A DNA stretch of 64,000 nt from Bolinopsis microptera. Taxonomy: Eukaryota > Ctenophora > Tentaculata > Lobata > Bolinopsidae. The stretch covers positions 8,347,411-8,411,410 of the forward strand of contig NC_087073.1 of NCBI RefSeq assembly GCF_026151205.1, written 5' to 3'. Shown piece after piece: positions 16,320 through 64,000 of this stretch (positions are counted from its first letter, which is position 1; every line of letters begins with the position of its first letter). The notes below the pieces were generated by a model. The model was not told the origin of the DNA and ran no database searches. It worked only from the letters and a program-made list of their open reading frames with translations. Position numbers and translations under genes: made by a program.

Positions 16320-17735
16320 TTAAACAGGCGTATCCTGTATGTCTGGAATTTCTTGTGGTACCTGATCTCCCGTTTGTAGTTCTGGTAGTCGGGTCGCTTG
16401 ATTAAGGAATGTTCCACCTTGAACACAAGGATTCTGTCTCTGGATGTGATGCTGCCTCGGTTGTTGTATTGCGTTGGGTCTCCGTCTTTGTGGACGTCTT
16501 ACTTGCGTTGAAGGTCTGAACAAGGAGAAGATATGGGATATCTTCAGCTTTAAGAACTGTCTAAAACTTGTAACCATCAGAGAGTAGACGAAGAAGTTAG
16601 CCATGATGTTAAGGTATTGCAGGTGCACAACTGCTCGCAATGTAGTGGGGCTTGGCACTTGACTAGATGTTACCACCATTACAGGCCATGGTAGGTTGGA
16701 GGATAACAGGACTCCCACCGTGAGTAGCACAGTTAAAACCCCCTCCCACCGCAGTCTATCTCCGTGGCGAACAGCTGATAACTTTGCCACCACCAGGAGA
16801 AGGAGTGATGAGACGACTAATGTGGCGAAGGAGAGCATGGCAACCCCACCTACAGCGATAAAGGATATCCAGTACCATGCTGGAATATTGGGGACAAAAT
16901 GATCATAGTTGCAATGATAATCCTGGTAACTAAAGTATAGGTTGTGTCTTAAGTAGATCACATTCCCAATAAGCACGGGAGAATACAAGCCCAGAGTCAG
17001 TAACCATGACACTGCTACACAGATTTTGTGTCCTAGCCGTGATGACCAGGGTCCAGTTTTCAGGGGGTACTTCACGACGAGGAGCTTCAGTGTTGTAAAT
17101 GCGCATGTTAAAAGTACGGTCACAACTACACTTGCTAATTTTATATTTGCTTCAACATGACAGAGAAATCCACCTAGAACCCAGCGATCAGTTGTTAGAG
17201 CCAGAGTGCGGGGTAACACAATGAACACGGTTTGTGTGAGATCACAAACAGCCATGTGCTGCATAACGGCTACTATGACCTTGTGGTGTTTGACAGCATT
17301 ATATTTGCTAGTTGCTATCAGGATGATACTGTCCCCTATTAGAGAAGCTAGGAGAACTGTAAGGCTCCATATAACCAAAACTGCTCGCTCGGTTCTATTT
17401 TTAATTCTATCCGCGAGAAATCTATACTGGATAGCGGAGTTGTGAGTGGAGTCATCTGCAGGTGATGCGTTTCGGGGAATTATCTGTTCACTATGAACTG
17501 TAGAGTTTTCATTTGGAGATTGATTGTCCCAACTTTGATTTTTCCTCCTAGACTCGGTAACAGCCACTTTTCCTCTGTATCCAACTTCTTTCTTGTCCGG
17601 TTTCATGGGACACTTTGTCTTATCATCAAGATCTGCAGCCATCAAAGTTAAACTGGCCCAGCCGCAACTGTTCCAAAGTGTTATGACAACCGATATTAGC
17701 AGTGCTTTTCGAGTAAAATTGCTGAATATCATCAT
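16320..17735 (-). CDS. Orphan seven-transmembrane GPCR, duplicate A
   Basis: Single-exon frame of 471 residues from the ATG at 17733-17735. Residues 1-27 look like a signal peptide, then a polar N-terminus with several N-glycosylation sequons, seven hydrophobic helices at about 117-140, 153-176, 192-218, 236-258, 287-317, 331-356 and 365-388, and a basic Pro/Gln-rich tail. It fits rhodopsin-type topology: helix 2 keeps the Asp (VCDLTQ), and Cys193 and Cys275 can form the helix3-ECL2 disulfide. The usual DRY, CWxP and NPxxY motifs are replaced by LKL, SNLPW and NFFVY, so activation and G-protein coupling may differ from typical class A receptors. Ligand unknown. The tandem duplicate differs by about 14 residues. 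Confidence 0.85.
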   Translation of the reverse strand: MMIFSNFTRKALLISVVITLWNSCGWASLTLMAADLDDKTKCPMKPDKKEVGYRGKVAVTESRRKNQSWDNQSPNENSTVHSEQIIPRNASPADDSTHNSAIQYRFLADRIKNRTERAVLVIWSLTVLLASLIGDSIILIATSKYNAVKHHKVIVAVMQHMAVCDLTQTVFIVLPRTLALTTDRWVLGGFLCHVEANIKLASVVVTVLLTCAFTTLKLLVVKYPLKTGPWSSRLGHKICVAVSWLLTLGLYSPVLIGNVIYLRHNLYFSYQDYHCNYDHFVPNIPAWYWISFIAVGGVAMLSFATLVVSSLLLLVVAKLSAVRHGDRLRWEGVLTVLLTVGVLLSSNLPWPVMVVTSSQVPSPTTLRAVVHLQYLNIMANFFVYSLMVTSFRQFLKLKISHIFSLFRPSTQVRRPQRRRPNAIQQPRQHHIQRQNPCVQGGTFLNQATRLPELQTGDQVPQEIPDIQDTPV

Positions 17736-22082: not shown

Positions 22083-23498
22083 TTAAACAGGCGTATCCTG
22101 TATGTCTGGAATTTCTTGTGGTACCTGATCTCCCGTTTGTAGTTCTGGTAGTCGGATCGCTTGATTAAGGAACGTTCCACCTTGAACACAAGGATTCGGT
22201 CTCTGGATGTGATGCTGCCTCGGTTGTTGTATTGCGTTGGGTCTCCGTCTTTGTGGACGTCTTACTTGCGTTGACGGTCTGAACAAGGAGAAGATATGGG
22301 ATATCTTCAGCTTTAAGAACTGTCTAAAACTTGTTACCATCAAAGAGTAGACGAAGAAGTTAGCCATGATGTTAAGGTATTGCAGGTGCACAACTGCTCG
22401 CAATGTAGTGGGGCTGGGCACTCCACTAGATGTTACCACCATTACAGGCCATGGTAGGTTGGAGGATAACAGGACTCCCACTGTGAACAGCACAGTTAAA
22501 ACACCCTCCCACCGCAGTCTATCTCCGTGGCGAACAGCTGATAACTTTGCCACCACCAGGAGAAGGAGTGATGAGACGACTAATGTGGCGAAGGAGAGCA
22601 TGGCAACCCCACCTACAGCGATAAAGGATATCCAGTACCATACTGGAATATTGGGGACAAAATGATCATAGTTGCAATGATAATCCTGGTAACTAAAGTA
22701 TAGGTTGTGTCTTAAGTAGATCACATTCCCAATAAGCACAGGAGAATACAAGCCCAGAGTCAGTAACCATGACACTGCTACACAGATTTTGTGTCCTAGC
22801 CGTAATGACCAGGGTCCAGTTTTCAGGGGGTACTTCACGACGAGGAGCTTCAGTGTTGTAAAGGCGCATGTTAAAAGTACGGTCACAACTACACTTGCTA
22901 ATTTTATATTCGCTTCAACATGACAGAGAAATCCACCTAGAACCCAGCGATCAGTTGTTAGAGCCAGAGTGCGGGGTAACACGATGAACATGGTTTGTGT
23001 GAGATCACAAACAGCCATGTGCTGCATAACGGCTACTATGACCTTGTGGTGTTTGATAGCGTTATATTTGCTAGTTGCTATCAGTATGATACTGTCCCCT
23101 ATTAGAGAAGCTAGGAGAACTGTAAGGCTCCATATAACCAAAACTGCTCGCTCGGTTCTATTTTTAATTCTATCTACGAGAAATCTGTACTGGATAGCGG
23201 AGTTGTGAGTGGAGTCATCTGCAGGTGATGCGCTTCGGGGAATTATCTGTTCACTATGAACTGTAGAGTTTTCATTCGGAGATTTATTGTCCCAACTTTG
23301 ATATTTCCTCCTAGACTCGGTAACAGCCACTTTTCCTCTGTATCCATCTTCTTTCTTGTCCGGTTTCATGGGACACTCTGTCTTATCATCAAGATCTGCA
23401 GCCATCAAAGTTAAACTGGCCCAGCCGCAGCTGTTCCAGAGTGTTATGACAACCGATATCAGCAGTGCTTTTCGAGTAAAATTGCTGAATATCATCAT
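22083..23498 (-). CDS. Orphan seven-transmembrane GPCR, duplicate B
   Basis: Intact 471-residue frame, the tandem copy of the gene at 16320-17735, equal in length and without gaps. About 14 residues differ, most of them in the N-terminal ectodomain and the tail and few in the helices. Hand counting gives about 35 nucleotide differences, of which roughly 20 are silent. Silent changes per site are therefore several times commoner than replacements, indicating that both copies have been kept as proteins. The altered DRY/NPxxY motifs are identical in both. Confidence 0.85.
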   Translation of the reverse strand: MMIFSNFTRKALLISVVITLWNSCGWASLTLMAADLDDKTECPMKPDKKEDGYRGKVAVTESRRKYQSWDNKSPNENSTVHSEQIIPRSASPADDSTHNSAIQYRFLVDRIKNRTERAVLVIWSLTVLLASLIGDSIILIATSKYNAIKHHKVIVAVMQHMAVCDLTQTMFIVLPRTLALTTDRWVLGGFLCHVEANIKLASVVVTVLLTCAFTTLKLLVVKYPLKTGPWSLRLGHKICVAVSWLLTLGLYSPVLIGNVIYLRHNLYFSYQDYHCNYDHFVPNIPVWYWISFIAVGGVAMLSFATLVVSSLLLLVVAKLSAVRHGDRLRWEGVLTVLFTVGVLLSSNLPWPVMVVTSSGVPSPTTLRAVVHLQYLNIMANFFVYSLMVTSFRQFLKLKISHIFSLFRPSTQVRRPQRRRPNAIQQPRQHHIQRPNPCVQGGTFLNQAIRLPELQTGDQVPQEIPDIQDTPV

Positions 23499-35819: not shown

Positions 35820-36479
35820 AGTAATCAGAGTTGGACTCTTGTTTTAGCGATTCGATCGAATTTCGATAAAGATTTTGGAGTGATTTGTATATAAGTTGAA
35901 GTTGAGTCAACGCTGTGATTAAATTGCATTGAAGTGTGACTGTGATCTTTAACTACAGATTGCACAGGTTTGAAGATAATCTTGTTGCTCGCCCAACTTT
36001 ATGTAAATCATGTGGAAGTGCTCTTAGTCTTACTAACTCGGGCCATTTTTTGACGCTGATTCTGAACCACTTCCAATGATATAGGTTACAAATACTTCCC
36101 TTAGCGAGAATCTATCATGTCAGATCTGGCGACGAATGCAAATTAAAAATTAATCTTAGGGATTGGGATCGATCTTCGGAAAGAGTAAGGGTTGAGGTTA
36201 GGGATTTCCGAAAATCTTTTCGTTTGGCCAGAATACCATAAAAACTAATCTCACGTGACAATTTTCGGGCGAGCGATTTAGTTAGAGCCTGATCTTGTAG
36301 TTGTAGAATTATCTTGATGAAGATTGAAAGATTCTTTGACAAACATTTGGCATGAGGTGCTTTATATGTGTAATTTTAAATTGTATATTTTATTTCTCTA
36401 CATATGTTAACTGAATCATTGAATTTGATATTTTTCTTTCACTCGGAAACTTAAGTGGTTGCAAAAATATTTTACGGAT
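35820..36479. other. Islet 3' flank
   Basis: Contains the Islet 3' untranslated region, whose end I could not place (no clear AATAAA), followed by AT-rich sequence. No further gene seen. Confidence 0.4.
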
Positions 36480-36587
36480 GATACCCTTGTAGCGCGATGC
36501 ACTACTAGGCCGCGCCGCGCATCTTCTCGCAACCACAGATCGTATGCAGATCGGCGAGATGCGAAGATCGGCGAGATGCGAAGGATT

Positions 36588-36700
36588 TTGACCATTGTTA
36601 ATGATCTGGCCCGGCGCGCGCTACTTCGTAGCTCGTGCCATTTCGAGAAGAAAGTGGCGCGCGCTACTTCGAAGAAATTTAGACGAGTAACATCCGTCAA
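36588..36700 (+). mobile_element. Element B, copy 1
   Basis: 113 bp from TTGACCATTGTTAATG to CATCCGTCAA; the ends are imperfect inverted repeats beginning TTGAC. Flanks GAAGGATT (left) and GTAGGATT (right) match at 7 of 8 bases. The element interrupts a module-F GCGAAGGATTGACATC sequence, intact elsewhere at about 38246. Inside, GGCGCGCGCTACTTCG is repeated. Confidence 0.75.
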
Positions 36701-36868
36701 GTAGGATTGACATCGTGAATCAAATGATACCCGTAAATATTGATTTCAAATATTAGATCCTTCAATGAGGCAATGGTCGGTAGGTTGACCATTTTTATTG
36801 TAGGTTTACAACCTACCAGGACGCGCGCAAATTGTGCTCCTGGGGATCGGAGCTAACTTTTGTTTTAC

Positions 36869-36995
36869 TTGACCATTGTTAATGGTCTGGCCCGGCGCGC
36901 GCTACTTCGTAGCACATAGCACTTGCCATCGGACATTTCGAGAAGAAAGCGGCGCGCGCTACTTCGAAGAAATTTAAACGAGTAACATCCGTCAA
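36869..36995 (+). mobile_element. Element B, copy 2
   Basis: Same ends and orientation as copy 1, with a slightly longer interior. No convincing target duplication around it. Confidence 0.65.
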
Positions 36996-37445
36996 GTCGG
37001 TAAGTTATAAACCTACAATGTACAAAATGAGAATAAAACTTTTAATCTGGTAACACACCGAGATTGTTAACGGGTGATACTGATCGCAACCACCGTAGAT
37101 CGGCGAAATCAGAAATTCGCCACTGGGCCTCGCCGAGCTAGGAAGGATTGACATCATGAATCAAATTGTGTTCATAAAGAAAATGATTCCGCAGAATGAC
37201 AGGCTGAGCGCCGCCCAGTAACATTAACTACGCTGATATATATGTGAATGTGATTGTATGTGTGACGCATTCTTATGTTTGGAGGACTTCGCCGCGCCGT
37301 GCAAACTAGCATTTTTGCGTCGCATCGAAGCATCCGTCGTCGCATCCGGCCGTCTTTTATTCGGCCCGAAATAAAACATTTATTTTTAGGATAACTCTAA
37401 ATCTACGTTGTCTCAAATTGTGCTCCTGGGGATCGGAGCTAACTT

Positions 37446-37569
37446 TTGACGGATGCATTACTCGTCTAAATTTCTTCGAAGTAGCGCGCGCCGCTTTCTT
37501 CTCGAAATGGCCCGACGGCAAGTGCTACGAAGTAGCGCGCGCCGGGCCAAACCATTAACAATGGTCAAA
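37446..37569 (-). mobile_element. Element B, copy 3 (inverted)
   Basis: Reverse-complement copy running from TTGACGGATG to AATGGTCAA. The octamer GCTAACTT occurs just outside both ends (37438-37445 and 37570-37577), a clear target duplication. Confidence 0.75.
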
Positions 37570-37674
37570 GCTAACTTTTGTTTTATGACGTAGGGTAAAA
37601 ATGCATCCGCGGCCCTGGAGAGTTATGGGCAAAAACCGTTTTGGTCCCATGACAGGCTAGTAAAGCTAAAAAGC

Positions 37675-37876
37675 TTGTCATACGTTGTATGACCCGCCGC
37701 GCACGAGTGCGCGGCTCCCCCTGTATCATAGAAACTCTTGTAGGTTTACAACCTACCAGGACGCGCGCCGAGTTGGACTCGTCGACGGTCCAATATATGG
37801 AACAGATATTTTACGAGTATCACCCGTTAAAGAAACTCTACAGGTGAAACGATCATGGGGTCACGACGTGATACAA
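37675..37876 (+). mobile_element. Element C, copy split by element D
   Basis: Starts TTGTCATACGTTGTATGACC and ends CACGACGTGATACAA, with the middle interrupted at 37738-37830 by element D. Without the insert it would be about 110 bp, like the other C copies. It includes a GC-rich hairpin (GCCGCGCAC / GTGCGCGGC). Confidence 0.75.
37738..37830 (+). mobile_element. Element D inside element C
   Basis: 93 bp from TTGTAGGTTTACAACC to GAGTATCACCCGTTAA. AGAAACTC is present directly on both sides (37730-37737 and 37831-37838; the match extends to nine bases if the first T is excluded), and uninterrupted C elements have a single copy there. This is direct evidence of insertion. Confidence 0.82.
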
Positions 37877-37942
37877 AGTAAAGCATGAATTCGATTGTTT
37901 AAGGCTCGTGTTAGGATTTAGGATTGTGCATGTACGTGGTAA

Positions 37943-38016
37943 TTGTATCACGTCGTGATCCCCATCGTCGTTTCACTATAGTATATAGTGAAACGTTGTC
38001 ATAAAACGTATGACAA
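37943..38016 (-). mobile_element. Element C, short inverted copy
   Basis: 74 bp from TTGTATCACG to CGTATGACAA. Flanks CGTGGTAA and CGTGGTTG share their first six bases. The interior contains ACTATAGTATATAGTG, a near palindrome. Confidence 0.65.
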
Positions 38017-38336
38017 CGTGGTTGCTCTAACCAGAGCCCTCTCGCTTGCAGTAGCGCGCGACCGCCGAAGGCGGCAAAGGAAGGTATATTTTGTAGCGCG
38101 ATGCACTACTGGGTCGCGCCGCGCATCAAATATAATTCCTCTCGCAGATCGGCGAGATGCACCACTGAACTGTGCCTTTGCTCTAACCAGAGCCCTCTCG
38201 CTTGCAGTACGTACATGGCTATGTGAAACTGTGCCTCACCGAGCTGCGAAGGATTGACATCGTGAATCAAGGTATATTCTACTTGTGAAACAAGCGCGTC
38301 ACGCAGTACGCGTATACACATGGGTCATGGCTATGT

Positions 38337-38444
38337 TTGTCATACGTTGTATGACCCGCCGCGCACGAAGTGCGCGGCTCCCCCTGTATCGTCAGAACGA
38401 TAAAAACATAGTGAAACGACCGTGGGGGTCGCAACGTGATACAA
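38337..38444 (+). mobile_element. Element C, best-preserved copy
   Basis: 108 bp from TTGTCATACGTTG to CAACGTGATACAA. A perfect octamer GGCTATGT flanks both ends (38329-38336 and 38445-38452). The terminal inverted repeats are imperfect over about 20 bp. Confidence 0.85.
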
Positions 38445-38490
38445 GGCTATGTGAAACAACGTGGTAAGGGTTCCGGTTAAGAATAGCTTC

Positions 38491-38530
38491 GGGGTTATGG
38501 TTGGGGTTAGGGTTGGGATTAGGGTTTATG
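38491..38530 (+). repeat. Degenerate telomere-like G-rich repeat
   Basis: About 40 bases of GGGGTT/TTAGGG variants (GGGGTTAGGGTTGGG) between two inverted C elements. It is too short and degenerate to be a chromosome end, and could fold into a G-quadruplex. Confidence 0.55.
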
Positions 38531-38640
38531 TTGTATCACGTGGTGACCCCCACGGTCGCTTCACTATAGTATTAGTAGAGTTTCGACGATACAGGGGGAG
38601 CCGCGCACTCGTGCGCGGCAGGTCATACAACGTATGACAA
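38531..38640 (-). mobile_element. Element C, inverted copy
   Basis: 110 bp, reverse complement of the copy at 38337-38444 and only 86 bases from it, so the pair could form a long hairpin. Flanks GGTTTATG and GGTTTAAT share six bases; the right flank has since grown into a (TAA)n tract. Confidence 0.75.
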
Positions 38641-38643
38641 GGT

Positions 38644-38644
<1 letters not shown>

Positions 38645-38674
<30 letters not shown>
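38645..38674. repeat. (TAA)n microsatellite
   Basis: About ten TAA units beginning right beside the 3' flank of a C element. Confidence 0.85.
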
Positions 38675-38675
<1 letters not shown>

Positions 38676-38892
38676 CCATAAAAACAAAAAACCAAAGTCA
38701 CGTGATTTTTTTGGGCGAGCGAATTAGTAAAAGCCTTCGGAGATAGACCTCGATTCACGATTTCAATCTTGCGCAGATAACCGTGGTCCAGTGGTGCAAT
38801 GTGCATCTCATCTCGCCGATCTAACTGCTAACAAGGATGAGAAACATTATATTTAATATTTATTTGATGCGCGATGATATAAGACAAATCAC

Positions 38893-38979
38893 TTAACGGG
38901 TGATACTCGTAAAATATCTGTTCCATATATTACGACAAGTCCAACTCGGCGCGCGTCCTGGTAGGTTGTAAACCTACAA
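38893..38979 (-). mobile_element. Element D, inverted copy
   Basis: 87 bp, reverse complement of the D copy at 37738-37830. Flanks CAAATCAC and CTAATCAC match at 7 of 8 bases. Confidence 0.72.
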
Positions 38980-39002
38980 CTAATCACGCGCACGTCGTGA
39001 TT

Positions 39003-39110
39003 AAGACCATTGTTAATGTTCTGGCCTGTCGCGCGCTACTTCGTAGCACTTGTCGAGAAGAAAGCGGCGCGCGCTACTTCGAAGAAATTTAGACGAGTAA
39101 CATCCGTCAA
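39003..39110 (+). mobile_element. Element B, copy 4, abutting a truncated element C
   Basis: B-type sequence ending CATCCGTCAA, immediately followed by a 5'-truncated inverted C copy (39111-39182) ending CGTATGACAA. No TSD could be defined at this fusion. Confidence 0.6.
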
Positions 39111-39190
39111 ACGTCGTGACCCCCACGGTCGTTTCACTGTAGAGATTTCTACGATACAGGCGGGTCATACAACGTATGACAAGGGTATCC

Positions 39191-39272
39191 TTACTGGGCC
39201 GCGCTCAGCCTGTCATTCCGCCAAATCTTTATTATATGTTAATGAACATAATAGCCTGGGGTCCTCAGGTAA
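39191..39272 (+). mobile_element. Element E, copy with perfect target duplication
   Basis: 82 bp from TTACTGGGCCGCGC to CCTCAGGTAA. The octamer GGGTATCC lies on both sides (39183-39190 and 39273-39280). Confidence 0.82.
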
Positions 39273-39330
39273 GGGTATCCTGGGTAATATTTGGAACAAA
39301 TATTTTACGAGTATCACCTGTTAATATAAA

Positions 39331-42300
39331 CCTGCAAGTTGAAGTATTATATTCAAACTCACAATTTTTGAAACTTGTAATTAAGGGAAGAATTTTAATT
39401 TTACGTCATGGGGGTGATTTGGAATCAGCGTTCAAAAATACATCGATGTAGGCAATTGTCATAACCTCAAGCAGGGGTCTTCAGTCTTTTTACAAGATTT
39501 TAATTAACAAATTTGGGAGAGCAATTTGATGGGAGCGGCCGACACCGGGTTAACACGCTTTCCTGAAGATTTATGGGTATCCAACTGAGCTGAGCTGTTT
39601 TGATCCCTTGACAAGCCCGTATAAGGAAGTAGGTCAAATTTCTCCTCAGAGTTGGGATACTGGCAGAGTAGATGCTGTAGCTAATGATTGAGAGTGAGAC
39701 TACAGAGCTACAGGGCCAGGTTCTGGTTAGAGTTTTGATCAGCCATAATAGCCACCAACAGAACGCGTTAAAGTTAGTCACGTGATAGTGAGCGTGAACT
39801 GATTAATCATCTTACGAATATATTTAAATTAATTGTGTAAACAATAATCTATTCTCGATCCAGCATCACGCAGGACAGACAGTGAGATCAGTATAACTAT
39901 ATTCTTTCATCAGGTTTGTATAATGTGTAATAAGGTTATTTATTAAATTATATCATATTTTCTTGGACGGTCATTTGAGCTTCTTTCATTTAGTGGTTGT
40001 TATAGTTTGTAACCTTTGACATATAGCACATGGGCTTAACGAACCATATCCACCCTGGATAGGAGAGCTTATGATTTTACTCATAAACATTAAACTTCCT
40101 CCGAAGCGTAGCAATAAATTGATTAATTTGTTTTTTGCTAGGGCCCAGTGTTATTGCGGGTGTGGTATTTCTTACTGCACACTACCGTGTTTTGGTTACC
40201 CCTCTTTCAATACAATTACATAATTTGGGTTTCGATATGATATACAGGGCTACTGGATATTTGGGCTATATTGGTTATCTCCTTTTATATCTAGGTTTAT
40301 TTAGAGGCATTCAATTATGTCTAATTATGTATTGATTTAGATACATTCACAATTCAACAAGTTTACCATATACTTGTGCACTGTCATGCTGTCACGAGAC
40401 TGTCAAATATTTCGAGTTTAGCTGCGAGTGCGCTTACATGCACAGGGCCTTATCTGTTTAATAATATGTAGGCTGAGGCTTCTTTACTCATTTCATCGTT
40501 GAAGTGTAACTCAAATTATATTTCTCTGCTCTTCGTTACTTTAATATTGATCAATAAAAGAACCGTTGCAGTTGCACTTGCAATCCCTCATTTAGTGTAT
40601 AACGATCCTACGTGTATTAGTGTTAGACCTGTGAACTGACACAGGGTCCAGCCGGATAAACTGTGCATTATGATGAGGAATAAATTTAATTGATTTATCA
40701 TCGATAATAAATACAACAAGAATTTCGCCGCGATTAAACCACGCACGATCAATTTTCCCTACCATGTACCATTAATTCTTTGAAAATTGTGTGACTGGAA
40801 AAAGTGCACCATAGTGCCGAGGCACTATACTAGCTGTCTGGTGGCTAATGTGAAGCTATGTTCTACTTTTATCATATTATATTCAATTATAATATTATGT
40901 AAGTCATTCAGTATTAGTATGAATATGATGCAAATTTACGTCTACTGTATATACTGTATTGCCAAAATTTTTAAAATAAAATTTAGTTGGTAGCATTTTG
41001 ATATTTGGAAAGTAGCACTCAAAAGTCAAAACTCTCGACAGAGCCACTAATTAGTTGAAGGGGACAACATGGAAGATGGCAACTGATAATTGGTACGAAT
41101 CTTTATACCATTGTTTAAACAGCTTCATTTTTCAGCGTAATCTAATTCTGTCGAAAGCCAGAAAGCTCCCTTCCAAATATGACAAGAATTTTAATAATCA
41201 ATAAGATCACGGGTCTTGATTAATGAAGAAATTTCTCTTCTTAGGAGCAACCACACCTGATGTTGCGTACAATTCATTCAGCGATTAGCTGTGCACATGT
41301 GCAAAATGCTCGGTAACGAGCTCGACAACAAGTGAAAATCAAAATGAAGCGCTCAGTTGTGACCTGACCGAGTTTCAGCTATAATAATATCCTTGAATAT
41401 GTACACGACGCGTGCTGAGAGTCCTATAATATAATAATAAGCTGATAGCTCGGTCGGCCATGTGTTTCTGTAAGTGTATCTTGGGCAGCCAGATTAATTG
41501 AATGTCGAATTTTAACCTATAGGCATGTGGTTTGATAGCCCATATCTTTGTAGAAGTAACGTATCGAGTAATCTAAATAGTGGCCGTGCCGGGTTTATTT
41601 GTTTTTAATAACTATACGTATAACTATAAGTATAAGCTAGATTAGAGTCGATCAGCACGGCTCTAAACAGCAATTGCTCAAAACCGTCACATTGTGATCG
41701 CTCTCTGTAATGGAATATGTCTGTACCACGGCTTATATTTAGGCTTAGCGGGCAGGACTCAATCGTTGATAGACAATTTCATTGTCGCCAGCTGAATATT
41801 CATATTACGTTTAGTTGTTAAATGATTTAAGAAAATGAAGTTTAGTAGTCAAATATGCCACTACTAGAACGCTGTTATAGTTGAAAAATGTTTTTCCACT
41901 ATCAAAAGATTGACCCTTGACATGAAATTTGGAGCTTGTCAAACTCAAAAGTTAATTCATGAATCATAACAGTACGTGTCGTTTTCTGTTCACTGACGCG
42001 TTTACATCTCCTATATTCTCCTAGCAATGATATATGACCACTATATTGTCTCCCATGGCTACTAATAGTAATACTATAAGTATAATGACAGTATGAACAA
42101 ATACCGTGACATTATAACAATGCTGCTTGTATTTTGTCTAATAATATCAGCTTAAAAATGCACGTGTTACGGGTTTATCTTGCATCGTTGTACCTGGGTC
42201 TCAAATATACAGCAGTAGCACTAGTATTAAATGGGATGGTCCCTGTTGAGGTGAACTCGTGGGTTAATTTGATTGAGAAAAAGGGATTTGTTAAATGGTG

Positions 42301-46737: not shown

Positions 46738-47022
46738 TAGTCAAGGATCTGACGACATTCCCGTCTATATAACTTCCGCCCCGGGGTTTGAGACTTGGAA
46801 TACCTCAAGGGACCCATTAGAAACAAATTTGGATTGGGTAGAAATTTTGGCTATGGGGCAGTTTTGCGCAATTGACCACGCCCTTTTTTGGCGCTTTTGC
46901 AACTTTAGAATCAAAATAACTCCGCTTCTAATTGGAATTAGAAGCTCAGCTTGGCTTTGAAGTTGTTCAGAATCATCACATTTAGGGGGGTAGAGCATAA
47001 TTTTAAAGTCAACAGACATCGG

Positions 47023-47910
47023 GTTGTTGAGTTATGTGACCACACCCTTATTTACCCTCGCGAGTCGTGATTTTCACACTAAATACGAGATATCTCGGCT
47101 TCTGATTGCGCTACGTGCTCATCCTGGGCATTAAAATGTTCAGAATCATCACATTGAGTAGGGTAGACCACAATTTCAAAGTCCTCAGATGTCAGGTTGT
47201 TGAGTTATTAGGCCCCAACCTGTTTTTACGCTCTTGCGGGTAGCGATTGCAGCGCTTAAAATCAAAATAACTCAGCCTCCAATTGAAGTTAGGAGCAAAA
47301 CTCGGGCAGCAAAATGTTCACAATCATCACATTGAGTGGGGTAGAACGTAGTTTCAAAGTCCTCAGACGTCAGGTTGTTGAGTTATTAGGCCCACACCAT
47401 AATATTTACGCTCTCGCGAGTCGCGAGTCGACACTTAAAATCAAAATAACTCGGCTTCTGATTAGAGTTAGGAACTAAACTTGGGCATAAAAATGTTCAG
47501 AATCATCACATTAAGTGGGGTAGAACGTGGTTTCAAAGTTCTCAGGCGTCAGGTTGTTGAGTTATTAGGCCCACACAATAATATTTACTCTCTCGCAAGT
47601 CGCGAGTTGACACTTAAAATCAAAATAACTCGGCTTCTGATTAGAGTTAGGAACTAAACTTGGGCATAAAAATGTTCAGAATCATCACATTGAGTGGAAT
47701 AGAACGTAGTTTCAAAGTCCTCAGACGTCAGGTTGATGAGTTATTAGGCGGAACCCTATTTTTACGCTCTCGCGAGTCAACACTTAAAATCAAGATAACT
47801 CGGTTCCTGATTAGAGTTAGGAACAAAACTTGGGCATGGAAATGTTCAGAATTATCACATTAAGTGGGGTAGAACTTGGTTTCAAAGTCTTCAGACGTCA
47901 GGTTGTTAAG
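47023..47910 (+). repeat. Left tandem array of the fold-back element (six units)
   Basis: Unit length 170-179 bp. Conserved parts are a CTCGCGAGTCGCGAG-type GC-rich segment, the sentence-like core AAAATCAAAATAACTCGGCT, and GTTCAGAATCATCACATT. The units nearest the outer end are the most diverged; the inner ones are alike. Confidence 0.8.
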
Positions 47911-48148
47911 TTATTCGACGGAACCCTATTTTTACGCTCTCGCAAGTAGTGATTCTATGCTTAAAATCAAAATAACTCTGCTCCGGATTAGAGTTAGGAA
48001 TTAAACTTGGGCATAGAAATGTCCAGAATTGTGAACATTTTTATGCCCAAGTTCAGTTCCTAACTCTAATCAGAAGCCGAGATATTTTGATTTTAAGTGT
48101 CGACTCGCGACTTGGGAGAGAGTAAATATTATGGTGTGGGCCTAATAA

Positions 48149-49400
48149 CTCAACAACCTGAAGTCTGATGACTTTGAAACCACGTTCTATCCCACTCAAT
48201 GTGATGATTCTGAACATTTTTATGCCCAAGTTTTGTTCCTAATTCTAATCAGAAACCGAGTTATTTTGATTTTAAGTGTCGACTCGCGATTCGCGAGAGC
48301 ATAAAAATAGGGTTCCTCCTAATAACTCAACAACCTGACGCCTGAGAACTTTGAAACCACGTTCTACCCCACTTAATATGATAATTCTGAACATTTCCAT
48401 GCCCAAGTTTTGTTCCTAACTCTAATCAGAAGCCGAGTTATCTTGATTTTAAGTGTTGACTCGCGACTCGCGAGAGCATAAAAATAGGGTTCCGCCTAAT
48501 AACTCAACAACCTGACGTCTGAGGACTTTGAAACTACGTTCTATCCCACTCAATGTGATGATTCTGGACATTTTTATGCCCAAGTGTAGTTCCTAACTCT
48601 AATCAGAAGCCGAGTTATTTTGATTTTAAGTGTCGACTCGCGACTTGCGAGAGAGTAAATATTATGGTGTGGGCCTAATAACTCAACAACCTGACGTCTG
48701 ATGACTTTGAAACTACGTTCTATCCCACTCAATGTGATGATTCTGAACATTTTTATGCCCAAGTTTAGTTCCTAACTCTAATCAGAAGCCGAGTTATTTT
48801 GATTTTAAGTGTCGAATCGCGACTCGCGAGAGCATAAAAATAGGGTTCCGCCTAATAACTCAACAACCTGACGCCTGAGAACTTTGAAACCACGTTCTAC
48901 CCCACTTAATGTGATGATTCTGAACATTTTTATGCCCAAGTTTAGTTCCTAACTCTAATCAGAAGCCGAGTTATTTTGATTTTAAGTGTCGACTCGCGAC
49001 TCGCGAGAGCGTAAATATTATGGTGTGGGCCTAATAACTCAACAACCTGACGTCTGAGGACTTTGAAACTACGTTCTACCCCACTCAATGTGATGATTGT
49101 GAACATTTTGCTGCCCGAGTTTTGCTCCTAACTTCAATTGGAGGCTGAGTTATTTTGATTTTAAGCGCTGCAATCGCTTCCCGCAAGAGCGTAAAAACAG
49201 GTTGGGGCCTAATAACTCAACAACCTGACATCTGAGGACTTTGAAATTGTGGTCTACCCTACTCAATGTGATGATTCTGAACATTTTAATGCCCAGGATG
49301 AGCACGTAGCTCAATCAGAAGCCGAGATATCTCGTATTTAGTGTGAAAATCATGACTCGCGAGGGTAAATAAGGGTGTGGTCACATAACTCAACAACCCG
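48149..49400 (-). repeat. Right tandem array of the fold-back element (eight units)
   Basis: Inverted counterpart of the left array. Units alternate between a form with AATATTATGGTGTGGGCC and one with AAAATAGGGTTCCGCC, pointing to expansion by duplication of unit pairs. Confidence 0.8.
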
Positions 49401-49682
49401 ATGTCTGTTGACTTTAAAATTATGCTCTACCCCCCTAAATGTGATGATTCTGAACAACTTCAAAGCCAAGCTGAGCTTCTAATTCCAATTAGAAGCGGAG
49501 TTATTTTGATTCTAAAGTTGCAAAAGCGCCAAAAAAGGGCGTGGTCAATTGCGCAAAACTGCCCCATAGCCAAAATTTCTACCCAAGCCAAATTTGTTTC
49601 TAATGGGTCCCTTGAGGTATTCCAAGTCTCAAACCCCGGGGCGGAAGTTATATAGACGGGAATGTCGTCAGATCCATGACTA

Positions 49683-56750: not shown

Positions 56751-56982
56751 CTTAGCTAATATATTACAATATAATTAATAATTATTGGGGCGCCCAATGC
56801 ATAACGACGCGCTGCGTTATTGGTTATCGTGCTTAGAGACTCGAGATTGTAGCAGAGCCACGAGCTAGTGTGTAGTGCATAGCATGTAAAAATAAAAGTT
56901 GCAATTAAAGTTTTGACGCATGTTACTCGTCTAAATTTCTTCGAAGTAGCATGCGAGGCAAGTGCTACGGTGTAGCGCGCGC

Positions 56983-57227
56983 TTATCATACGTTGTATGA
57001 CCTTGTATCACGTCGTGACCCCACGGTCGTTTCACTACCCCTGTAGAGTTTCTACAATACAGGGGAGCCGCGCACTCATGCACTCATGAACATAATAGCC
57101 TGGGGTCCCAAGGTAACAGTGAGCAGCAGTTAGCAACAGTTAGCAGCAGTGAGCAGCAGTTTCTTTGCACTATAGTCTTCCTGTGCACTATAGTGAAACA
57201 ACCGTGGGGGTCACGGTGTGATACAAT
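56983..57227 (+). mobile_element. Element C (composite) inside element B
   Basis: Starts TTATCATACGTTGTATGACC and ends CACGGTGTGATACAAT, with the C ends but an enlarged rearranged middle that includes a second, inverted C start and an E fragment. TAGCGCGCGC is present on both sides (56973-56982 and 57228-57237), where intact B elements have it once. Confidence 0.72.
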
Positions 57228-57386
57228 TAGCGCGCGCCGGGCTAGTCTATTAACAATGGACAATAAAAGTTGCATTGTATGTTGTACTGGCATCGTCAAT
57301 TAAGATTGATTTAATAAATTTTACTCAGCTTGGTTATTTTTGTTCGGTACTTCCCTTTACGTTATAGGTTTATAAACTACCAAGAC

Positions 57387-57473
57387 TTACTGGGCCGCGC
57401 TCAGCCTGTCATATTTCCGCCAAATCTCTATTCGTTAATGAACATGATAGCCTGAGGTCCCGGCCCCAGGTAA
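57387..57473 (+). mobile_element. Element E inside a diverged element D
   Basis: 87 bp from TTACTGGGCCGCGC to CCCCAGGTAA. ACCAAGAC flanks both ends (57379-57386 and 57474-57481), duplicating the ACCAGGAC position of other D copies. Confidence 0.8.
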
Positions 57474-58086
57474 ACCAAGACGCGCGCCGAAATGGACTCG
57501 TCGACGGTCTTGAAACAAATATTTTACCAGTATAGTTATTTAAAATAGCACGAAAATCATTTCTTGACGAGTTATAAGCAAAAAATATTTTTTTTTCAGA
57601 CAAGCTTAAAACGAGAATTGAGCTGTTTACGCTTTTGGATGCAAGTTAGTTTTGGTTTTTAAGTAATACTAATTGTGAAGAGCTTCGGAGGACTTCGCCG
57701 CTTCGACGCGCCGCGCAAACAAGCATTCTTGCTTCGCAGAGCAGCGATCTGGAAGGGTTGACAACGTCAATCAATGAAGAGCTATGTAATATAAAAATTT
57801 GCAGAAAAAAGTTGTGCACCTTAACTTTAAATAATTACTGCATTATAAATAAAAATCGAAATCAGCAATTTACAATTTACAATTGCAAATGTAACACTAA
57901 CAGAACGGTCCAAATATAATTTTGTCCCTGGCCCTACGTAACGCGACGGCCTCGCGCTATTGCAATTCGAGCGAGAGGGCTCTGGTTAGAGCAAAATTGT
58001 TTTACAGCAGACAATTGCAATTAAATAACACGGTAGCATTTCCTTAACGGGTGGTTGTATGTTGTAGCTCGATGCACTACTGGGCC

Positions 58087-58188
58087 TTACCTGGGGACCC
58101 CAGGCTATGCTATTATATTTCTGTTCATAATCATAGAATTGAATAGAGATTTTGCGGAGTGCATGACAGGCTGAGCGCCGCCCAGAAT
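58087..58188 (-). mobile_element. Element E (inverted) inside module F
   Basis: About 100 bp from TTACCTGGGGACC to GCGCCGCCCAG. Flanks ACTGGGCC and ACTGGGTC match at 7 of 8 bases, and uninterrupted F copies carry a single ACTGGGCC. Confidence 0.78.
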
Positions 58189-63259: not shown

Positions 63260-64000
63260 TCATGCAATTTGCATACTTCTCCATTTAACTCTATTCTGAG
63301 CAATTAACGTTAAATAGTTCAAATCACATAAATTATTTAACGATAATTTTCGGACACTAAGGTCGTGTAGAATCAGTGAGAAAAGGTTTGACTGCGGTCT
63401 TCCACGCCGCCCTTGAAGCTGTAGGGTGTTGACAGCAAAAACAAGCGACGAATAGGCAGGGCCATCTGTAGGCCCACGCAGTACATGTCCGAGCATCCTC
63501 CACCGACTACGAGCCACTTTAGCTGACAATGGTTCGCTATTGCAGCGTTTATACAAGTTCTTGTTGGAGATGATGTGAGGGTATTTGTAATTCAAAATTG
63601 ATCGCAGATGACGTCTGTGAGCAATATCTAGTTTTTCCAATACTGATTTAGGGGCAGCCCAGCAAGATGAATTGTACATTAAAACGGATACTACCAGAGC
63701 CTCATACAACAGAAGCCTCTTGCTCAGAGGGATCTTATGGTTCCAAGCTTTCTTGTATTTGTTAAACGCGGCATATCCCAGACATATCCTTCTAGAGATG
63801 TCCTCCTTACTACAAAGCATGGAGCCAAGCGTGATACTCTTTCTCCAGAGCTCGTTCCCTGCAATTGGCTTACCCTGATCGTCTTTAGCTCCCTTTTCAG
63901 CTAAGTACACATGAGTGAAATCAGTTTTGTCTTCGTTAACGAAGAGATTCCAATCTTTAAGGACTTCTGTTGCAATAGGCAACAGCTCCCTCAGATTGTC
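63260..64000 (-). mobile_element. Non-LTR retrotransposon (LINE), 3' part of the reverse transcriptase
   Basis: An open frame of about 246 codons entering from beyond the right edge. It matches the C-terminal thumb and tail of non-LTR reverse transcriptases: FVNEDKTDF, ITLGSMLCSKEDISRR, AALRLLLYEAL-like KRLLLYEALVVSVLMYNSSC, LDIAHRRHLRSIL, RWRMLGHVLRGP and QGRRGRP. The frame is unbroken within the window, suggesting a fairly young copy. The clade (RTE, CR1 or another) cannot be settled without the catalytic core, which lies outside. Confidence 0.85.

Follow-up and report, generated by a model that had tools for sequence, protein, structure and literature searches.

Cut-and-paste transposons are classified and found by their terminal inverted repeats, and duplications of fixed length in unrelated sequence, next to clean ends, are characteristic of a DDE-type transposase or integrase that inserts with a staggered cut. 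The subject here is a nest of ultrashort repeats, assigned to families B to H, in a 64,000-nucleotide stretch of the genome of the ctenophore Bolinopsis microptera (contig NC_087073.1, C2:8347411-8411410; hereafter the window). The copies carry such duplications and have a private palindrome at each end in place of an inverted repeat common to both.

Several described systems share part of this structure; comparisons with the papers cited by PubMed Central identifier refer to excerpts of them. Miniature inverted-repeat transposable elements (MITEs) are likewise short, non-coding, present in many copies and nested, with fixed ends and target duplications, but their definition requires inverted repeats, terminal or subterminal, that are common to both ends. 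By duplication length the nearest system is Merlin, with 8- or 9-bp duplications (PMC8101967; PMC4482050); its ends, however, are described as GG with inverted repeats of 24-462 bp (PMC8101967), whereas here they are TT with no clear shared repeat, so that Merlin fits the duplication and not the termini. The hAT and P elements resemble these repeats in an 8-bp duplication and a target motif extending 3 bp outside it, but they keep to one length (8 bp in 99.83% of insertions for hobo, a hAT element, and a single length in 98.45% for P; PMC3276498), whereas 8 and 9 bp are mixed here in proportions that vary by family. By stem-loop ends the nearest systems are the bacterial REP/RAYT and IS200/IS605 elements, which are short, lack inverted repeats and have stem-loops in inverted orientation at their ends that are recognized as such; according to the excerpt, they make no larger target duplications (PMC2817692). 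MITE-like clusters of Anopheles have palindromic flanking ends, and mariner inverted repeats with internal palindromic motifs are cited in the same paper; these clusters measure 430-1678 nt, and the excerpt reports neither 8- or 9-bp duplications nor private palindromes of equal geometry (PMC3212995). Among other unusual high-copy non-autonomous elements of animals, and as far as excerpts of their descriptions go, CMITE of corals is tied to piggyBac-like elements, while ATon of Aedes inserts at AT and bears terminal inverted repeats. Among the papers listed in searches of the open-licence PubMed Central literature, none described an element combining private end palindromes with 8- or 9-bp duplications; single families may be catalogued in Repbase or Dfam.

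Copies, ends and target duplications

The genome searched comprised 264.65 Mb in 232 contigs. Cores of 29-33 bases, with up to three mismatches allowed, gave 2,155 matches for B, 1,337 for C, 2,921 for D, 4,272 for E and 1,953 for F, and the reversed core patterns of B-F gave none. Flanks and ends were studied in 98 fetched loci together with the window; the loci were picked on contig C1 at exact matches to 29- to 33-base patterns from the window, so that the sample is not random, and 69 of the 98 are independent. When the window modules were blasted against this set, the start and end points of B-E were sharp, with ends TT...AA.

Of 173 full-length B-E copies, 104 stood between exact repeats of 8 or 9 bp. 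An 8-bp repeat was found in 5/29 copies of B, 30/45 of C, 20/50 of D and 23/49 of E, and a 9-bp repeat in 8/29, 0/45, 9/50 and 9/49, respectively, while lengths of 6, 7 and 10-13 bp occurred in at most one copy per family. Flanks mispaired between different copies matched exactly at 8 or 9 bp in no more than about 0.1% of cases. The 9-bp cases are genuine duplications of unrelated sequences and do not reflect one extra base of the element. A de novo scan, which took pairs of TT-palindrome and palindrome-AA no more than 3 kb apart and flanked by exact repeats, gave the same picture: there were 102 and 48 exact duplications at 8 and 9 bp, against 18, 9, 1 and 1 at 6, 7, 10 and 11 bp, and the terminal pair TT/AA occurred 185 times against 0-5 for ten other pairs (places not deduplicated). 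Empty sites were sought for 146 of 150 copies (the other four were too long or too near the end of a locus) by joining the two flanks of each and comparing the result with the loci; an uninterrupted relative, defined by at least 75% identity across the site, was found for 68, of which 28 were gapless. B, C, D and E are thus real mobile elements with sharp TT...AA ends, to which F, G and H were added. They are MITE-like in a broad sense, being short, non-coding, high in copy number and sharp-ended, with target duplications of fixed length. Most complete copies measure about 50-140 bp, and longer ones often contain other elements.

The length of the duplication depends on the family (chi-square p = 3.5e-7, G left out). 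The ratio of 8- to 9-bp duplications was 35:0 in C, 16:5 in E1, 7:3 in E2, 20:12 in D, 8:9 in B, 7:6 in F2 and 1:12 in F1; in G it was 5:0, one of the five being probably an F + G composite. The 23 pairs of H comprised 13 with an exact 9-bp duplication, one with 8 bp, one with 9 bp and a mismatch, and eight with no duplication. In 78% of 8-bp cases (n=103) and 81% of 9-bp cases (n=49), the third base beyond the duplication on either side is a pyrimidine. Inside the 8-bp duplication there is a mild excess of G1/C8 and a central excess of T4/A5; the 103 duplicated octamers showed no T2/A7 excess of the kind expected from an nTnnnnAn bias, nor, apart from the mild G1/C8 excess, the P-element pattern GTCCGGAC. 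A separate group with 7-bp duplications was considered and rejected, as its members were mostly one-base shifts of 8-bp cases.

An initial annotation of the window had described mobile elements that are ultrashort and rich in palindromes, make target duplications and nest in one another, and had set out B, C, D and E as separate modules with TT...AA ends. Both points are borne out by the sharp blast ends and by the modules having their own duplications. Repeats flank the genome copies far more often than chance would allow, and the modules occur as separate elements, both alone and inside each other, so that the two doubts it had attached to its own proposal (octamers no commoner than chance, or modules being parts of one larger element) do not apply. 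Its hint of a hAT-like transposase is not supported: duplications are of 8 or 9 bp in family-dependent proportions, the nTnnnnAn bias is missing, the termini are TT and none of the hAT matches listed lay near the G left ends searched (see below), although a preference 3 bp outside the duplication is a feature reported for hobo and P as well (PMC3276498).

Palindromes of fixed geometry at the element ends

In all seven families each end consists of TT followed by a palindrome starting at nucleotide 3. The initial annotation had noticed the palindromic nature of the elements and had missed this fixed geometry. Stem and loop sizes are equal at both ends of a family, namely 7-3-7 in B-G and 5-4-5 in H, the ends of which are TTGCTCTAACCAGAGC and TTCACATAGCCATGTG, with perfect stems. 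Across the seven families the arms within an end pair at 77 of 94 positions, whereas left and right arms are identical in 75 of 188 comparisons, and in H they share one base of five. The loops are identical between left and right in 17 of 22 positions and are directional (GTT/GTT, GAT/GAT, AACC/AGCC). Comparison of the whole left and right ends of one element, TT and loop included, gave agreement at only 8-14 of 19 bases, and hence no shared terminal inverted repeat. The stem-loops that define the ends of IS200/IS605 and REP/RAYT elements thus have a putative counterpart at each end here, in the form of self-complementary sequence.

The symmetry was assessed over the 12 ends of B-G. Positions symmetric about nucleotide 11 were complementary in 67 of 84 cases, while other centres between 8 and 22.5 gave 15-33%. 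Reshuffling the letters of the inner arms among the ends reached a maximum of 44/84 in 5,000 trials, and when whole arms were re-paired the value of 67 was never reached in 100,000 trials. Mean agreement of half-sites, out of seven, was 5.58 within an end, 2.96 between left and right ends of a family and 2.37 between families. A scan open to many geometries found 7-3-7, with its sub- and super-forms, and 5-4-5 to be the commonest; strong places made up 85/208 at 8 bp and 43/82 at 9 bp, against 7/600, 9/207, 0/14 and 0/4 for the control lengths of 6, 7, 10 and 11 bp.

Changes in the two arms also appear partly coupled. The first pair of the F right end has changed from G-C to A-T in 28 of 83 copies, a paired change that marks a subfamily. 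Over all Watson-Crick stem pairs, 100 double changes were counted against 54.6 expected under independence, and 59 of them were still Watson-Crick; this count lends support without being a strict test, since the copies share ancestry. Stem mismatches read on the TT strand were 10 A.C or C.A, three G.T and four others, a pattern that corresponds to wobble on the other strand and is too weak to name an active strand. Folding of the whole single strand was better than that of shuffled sequences for B, C and D (z -2.2, -4.9 and -3.1).

Recognition of the ends and competing explanations

It is regarded as probable that the repeats form a single structural class of cut-and-paste elements, ultrashort, non-coding and non-autonomous, with at least seven families, and that the transposase which mobilizes them recognizes a dyad or stem-loop at each end. 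Such an element would be laid out as TT, palindrome, variable middle, palindrome and AA. The elements are too short to code for a transposase, and therefore the enzyme, presumed to be of DDE type, would act in trans. It would bind each end at the palindrome from nucleotide 3, cut at the TT/AA ends and insert the element with a stagger of 8 or 9 bp, favouring targets that have a pyrimidine 3 bp beyond either edge of the duplicated stretch. The arms are self-complementary but share little between the ends, while loops and geometry are mostly shared, which makes a reading of structure the most likely. A dimer reading sequence should need similar arms at both ends, whereas a reader of stem-loop or dyad shape and loop bases need not, and this too favours recognition of end structure, which is held with moderate confidence. 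Dyad symmetry or stem-loop shape together with the loop bases would then be recognized in place of a common terminal inverted repeat, and the arm sequence would be largely free provided that it is self-complementary.

A number of observations weigh against this reading. The loops of D and E agree between the ends at only 1/3 positions, and the right ends of B, C and D are weaker palindromes than the left (5, 4 and 5 of 7). Single stem changes number 545 against the 100 double ones, which fits decay after insertion, and the folding of E, F and G was not clearly above that of shuffles (z -1.2, -1.5 and -0.8). The 7-3-7 geometry was first noticed by eye, and hence the search was repeated without demanding a palindrome, using TT...AA pairs 45-160 bp apart with exact flanking repeats. 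The mean dyad score, out of 14, was then 8.2 for 8 bp (95 places) and 8.3 for 9 bp (56 places), whereas the control lengths of 6 and 7 bp scored 4.2 and 5.9 and those of 10-12 bp about 3; no strong 7-3-7 dyad was present at 42 of the 8-bp and 23 of the 9-bp places, those listed being H copies, one-base shifts, low-complexity sequence, decayed copies and a few unexplained cases. Hairpin reading and dimer binding to a double-stranded dyad are both consistent with the data. Finally, no autonomous element with these ends was present in the 361 kb read, and no transposase could be tied to the element ends when hAT, MULE and Merlin were tried at G left ends.

A 1,280-bp form of G (L049:1719-2998) has the same ends as forms of 55-71 bp, which suggests repeated internal deletion. 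It is the only long form of a known family in the scan of the 98 loci and the window up to 3 kb, and two of its 16 stop-to-stop frames, when tried, gave no Pfam match. Judged from coordinates alone, relatives of this copy (59 rows from 40 of 1,079 candidates) and the 25 places of its left end point to three copies that may hold inserts of about 4, 7 and 10 kb. Candidate G copies for a longer form lie near C1:18047027-18055446, C13:13437111-13448243 and C7:3132076-3137010. Another G copy holds an insertion of about 12 kb (C3:19072866-19084881) which does not belong to the TT class; sampled at its ends, it shows a 9-bp duplication (GTGTACCGA) and long, almost identical inverted repeats that begin with TAGTGTGG; one further insert, also sampled at its ends, looked reverse-transcriptase-like by eye. 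Domains of hAT, MULE (88 matches, 87 used) and Merlin (IS1595-type, 58 matches) are present in the genome. Within 15 kb of the 25 G left ends, the only family used here, there were none of the 148 hAT matches listed (150 of 365 candidates scored), none of the 87 MULE and none of the 58 Merlin matches. The P-type transposase PF21788 and the KDZ (KDZ/Zisupton) transposase PF18758 gave no genome matches, with their controls silent as well. A single 20-mer from the left end of C, looked for as an exact match in viral contigs to check for spread by viruses, was absent from them.

The main competing explanation is that these are ordinary MITEs and belong to a known superfamily that makes duplications of 8-9 bp, either Merlin or a MULE or hAT lineage, and that the palindromes reflect the binding of dimers to a 17-bp double-stranded dyad at each end. 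The domains required occur in the genome, Merlin makes duplications of both lengths and has one family with highly imperfect inverted repeats according to the excerpt (PMC8101967), and the reach of the hobo and P target motifs, mentioned above, recurs here. Against this, Merlin has a conserved GG where the termini here are TT, one protein would have to bind both ends with the low identity of left and right arms given above, and none of the hAT, MULE and Merlin matches listed lay within 15 kb of the G left ends. This explanation is considered rather unlikely. Origin as retroposons resembling short interspersed nuclear elements, derived from a structured RNA and folding into hairpins, would suit the strong folding of C and D; the duplications, however, are fixed at 8 or 9 bp, the palindrome geometry is equal at both ends, and window positions 35900-39500 gave no Rfam match at gathering thresholds, which makes such an origin very improbable. 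Lastly, the modules could be fragments of one larger repeat or of a scrambled satellite, with the octamers as a by-product. Modules do lie within 1.5 kb of one another at 8.6 to 15.3 times genome density (69 independent loci; 109 besides the anchors), a crowding which is expected because the elements insert into each other. They are also found alone, with duplications and empty sites of their own, and in both orientations, and their order resolves as successive insertions; the idea of a larger repeat, of scarcely any probability, is refuted by the duplications and empty sites.

The preferred reading, of ends recognized by structure, can be taken one step further, and it is tentatively proposed that the families belong to a new superfamily of eukaryotic cut-and-paste transposons whose ends are read as a directional stem-loop, by stem geometry and loop bases, and not as a linear inverted repeat; a new superfamily is given a real chance. 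If this is true, stem sequence could drift as long as the two arms changed in step, no match between left and right ends would be needed, elements could shrink to about 50 bp, and the class would be a duplication-making counterpart of the bacterial REP and IS200 stem-loop ends. A class with a private palindrome at each end and thousands of copies would be missed or wrongly split by repeat finders that demand matching ends. It also raises the testable question of whether a duplication-making transposase can read DNA shape or hairpins rather than sequence. The family-dependent stagger of 8 or 9 bp offers a way into what determines its length, and with copies of 50-71 bp it can be tested how near two transposon ends may lie and still be brought together.

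The nest in the window and its surroundings

The nest occupies 36.4-39.3 kb of the window (Table 1), and between 30 and 46 kb the sole start-to-stop frame of at least 120 aa sits at 43.6 kb. The duplications that the initial annotation had described around the E element, the C element inside H and the D element inside C are confirmed as exact, and those around the B element inside F and the minus-strand D element are likewise present, with one mismatch each. For the inverted B element both element and repeat were confirmed, but its end lies at 37568 and not 37569, and the duplication is of 9 bp and not 8.

Table 1. Elements identified in the nest, and a second nest, by nucleotide position in the window.
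Element	Position	Strand	Duplication	Remarks
F	36487..36723	+	9 bp, ATGATACCC	Interrupted by B; absent from the initial annotation
B inside F	36588..36700	+	GAAGGATT/GTAGGATT	One mismatch
B	36869..36995	+		No duplication left
B (inverted)	37446..37568	-	9 bp, AGCTAACTT	
C	37675..37876	+		Interrupted by D; own duplication gone
D inside C	37738..37830	+	8 bp, AGAAACTC	
C, 74 bp	37943..38016	-	8 bp, CGTGGTAA	Right copy split by H insertion
Outer H, 130 bp of its own	38022..38455	+	9 bp, ACAACGTGG	Interrupted by F and C; absent from the initial annotation
F inside H	38091..38270	+	8 bp, GGTATATT	Interrupted by short H; absent from the initial annotation
H inside F, 50 bp	38178..38227	+	9 bp, ACTGTGCCT	Absent from the initial annotation
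C inside H	38337..38444	+	8 bp, exact, GGCTATGT	
C	38531..38640	-		No duplication left
D	38893..38979	-	CAAATCAC/CTAATCAC	One mismatch
B	39003..39110	+		No duplication left
E	39191..39272	+	8 bp, GGGTATCC	
Second, older-looking nest	56913..58188			Ends of B, C, D, E, F and H; more decayed; no exact duplication

A series of five insertions can be ordered within the nest. The 74-bp C element came first, as the last three bases of its duplication now lie beyond the next insertion, that of the outer H element at its edge. The outer H element then received an F and a C element, and the 50-bp H element landed within that F; elsewhere in the nest D entered C and B entered F. With the inserts removed, the C element (55 matches), the F element (31) and the second F element (9) each have counterparts in other loci that are free of interruptions and match over at least 90% of the element. 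The cleaned outer H element had no uninterrupted match over at least 90% of its length in other loci, and its right part is unlike other H copies.

Short telomere-like GGGTTA repeats lie within the nest at 38491-38526. Elsewhere in the window, a tandem array at 46905-49515 has a unit of about 177-179 bp, with periods also of about 350, and its consensus units on either side of 48028 look mutually reverse-complementary. Between 50891 and 52131, two tandem repeats of 11 bp, CATTCCAGTTA and AGTACTAATAT, each reappear after about 930 bp, which suggests a local duplication. An open frame on the minus strand at 63260-63982 has a reverse-transcriptase-like look, and two near-identical frames of 471 aa each, receptor-like in appearance, lie at 16320-17735 and 22083-23498 and point to a recent duplication.

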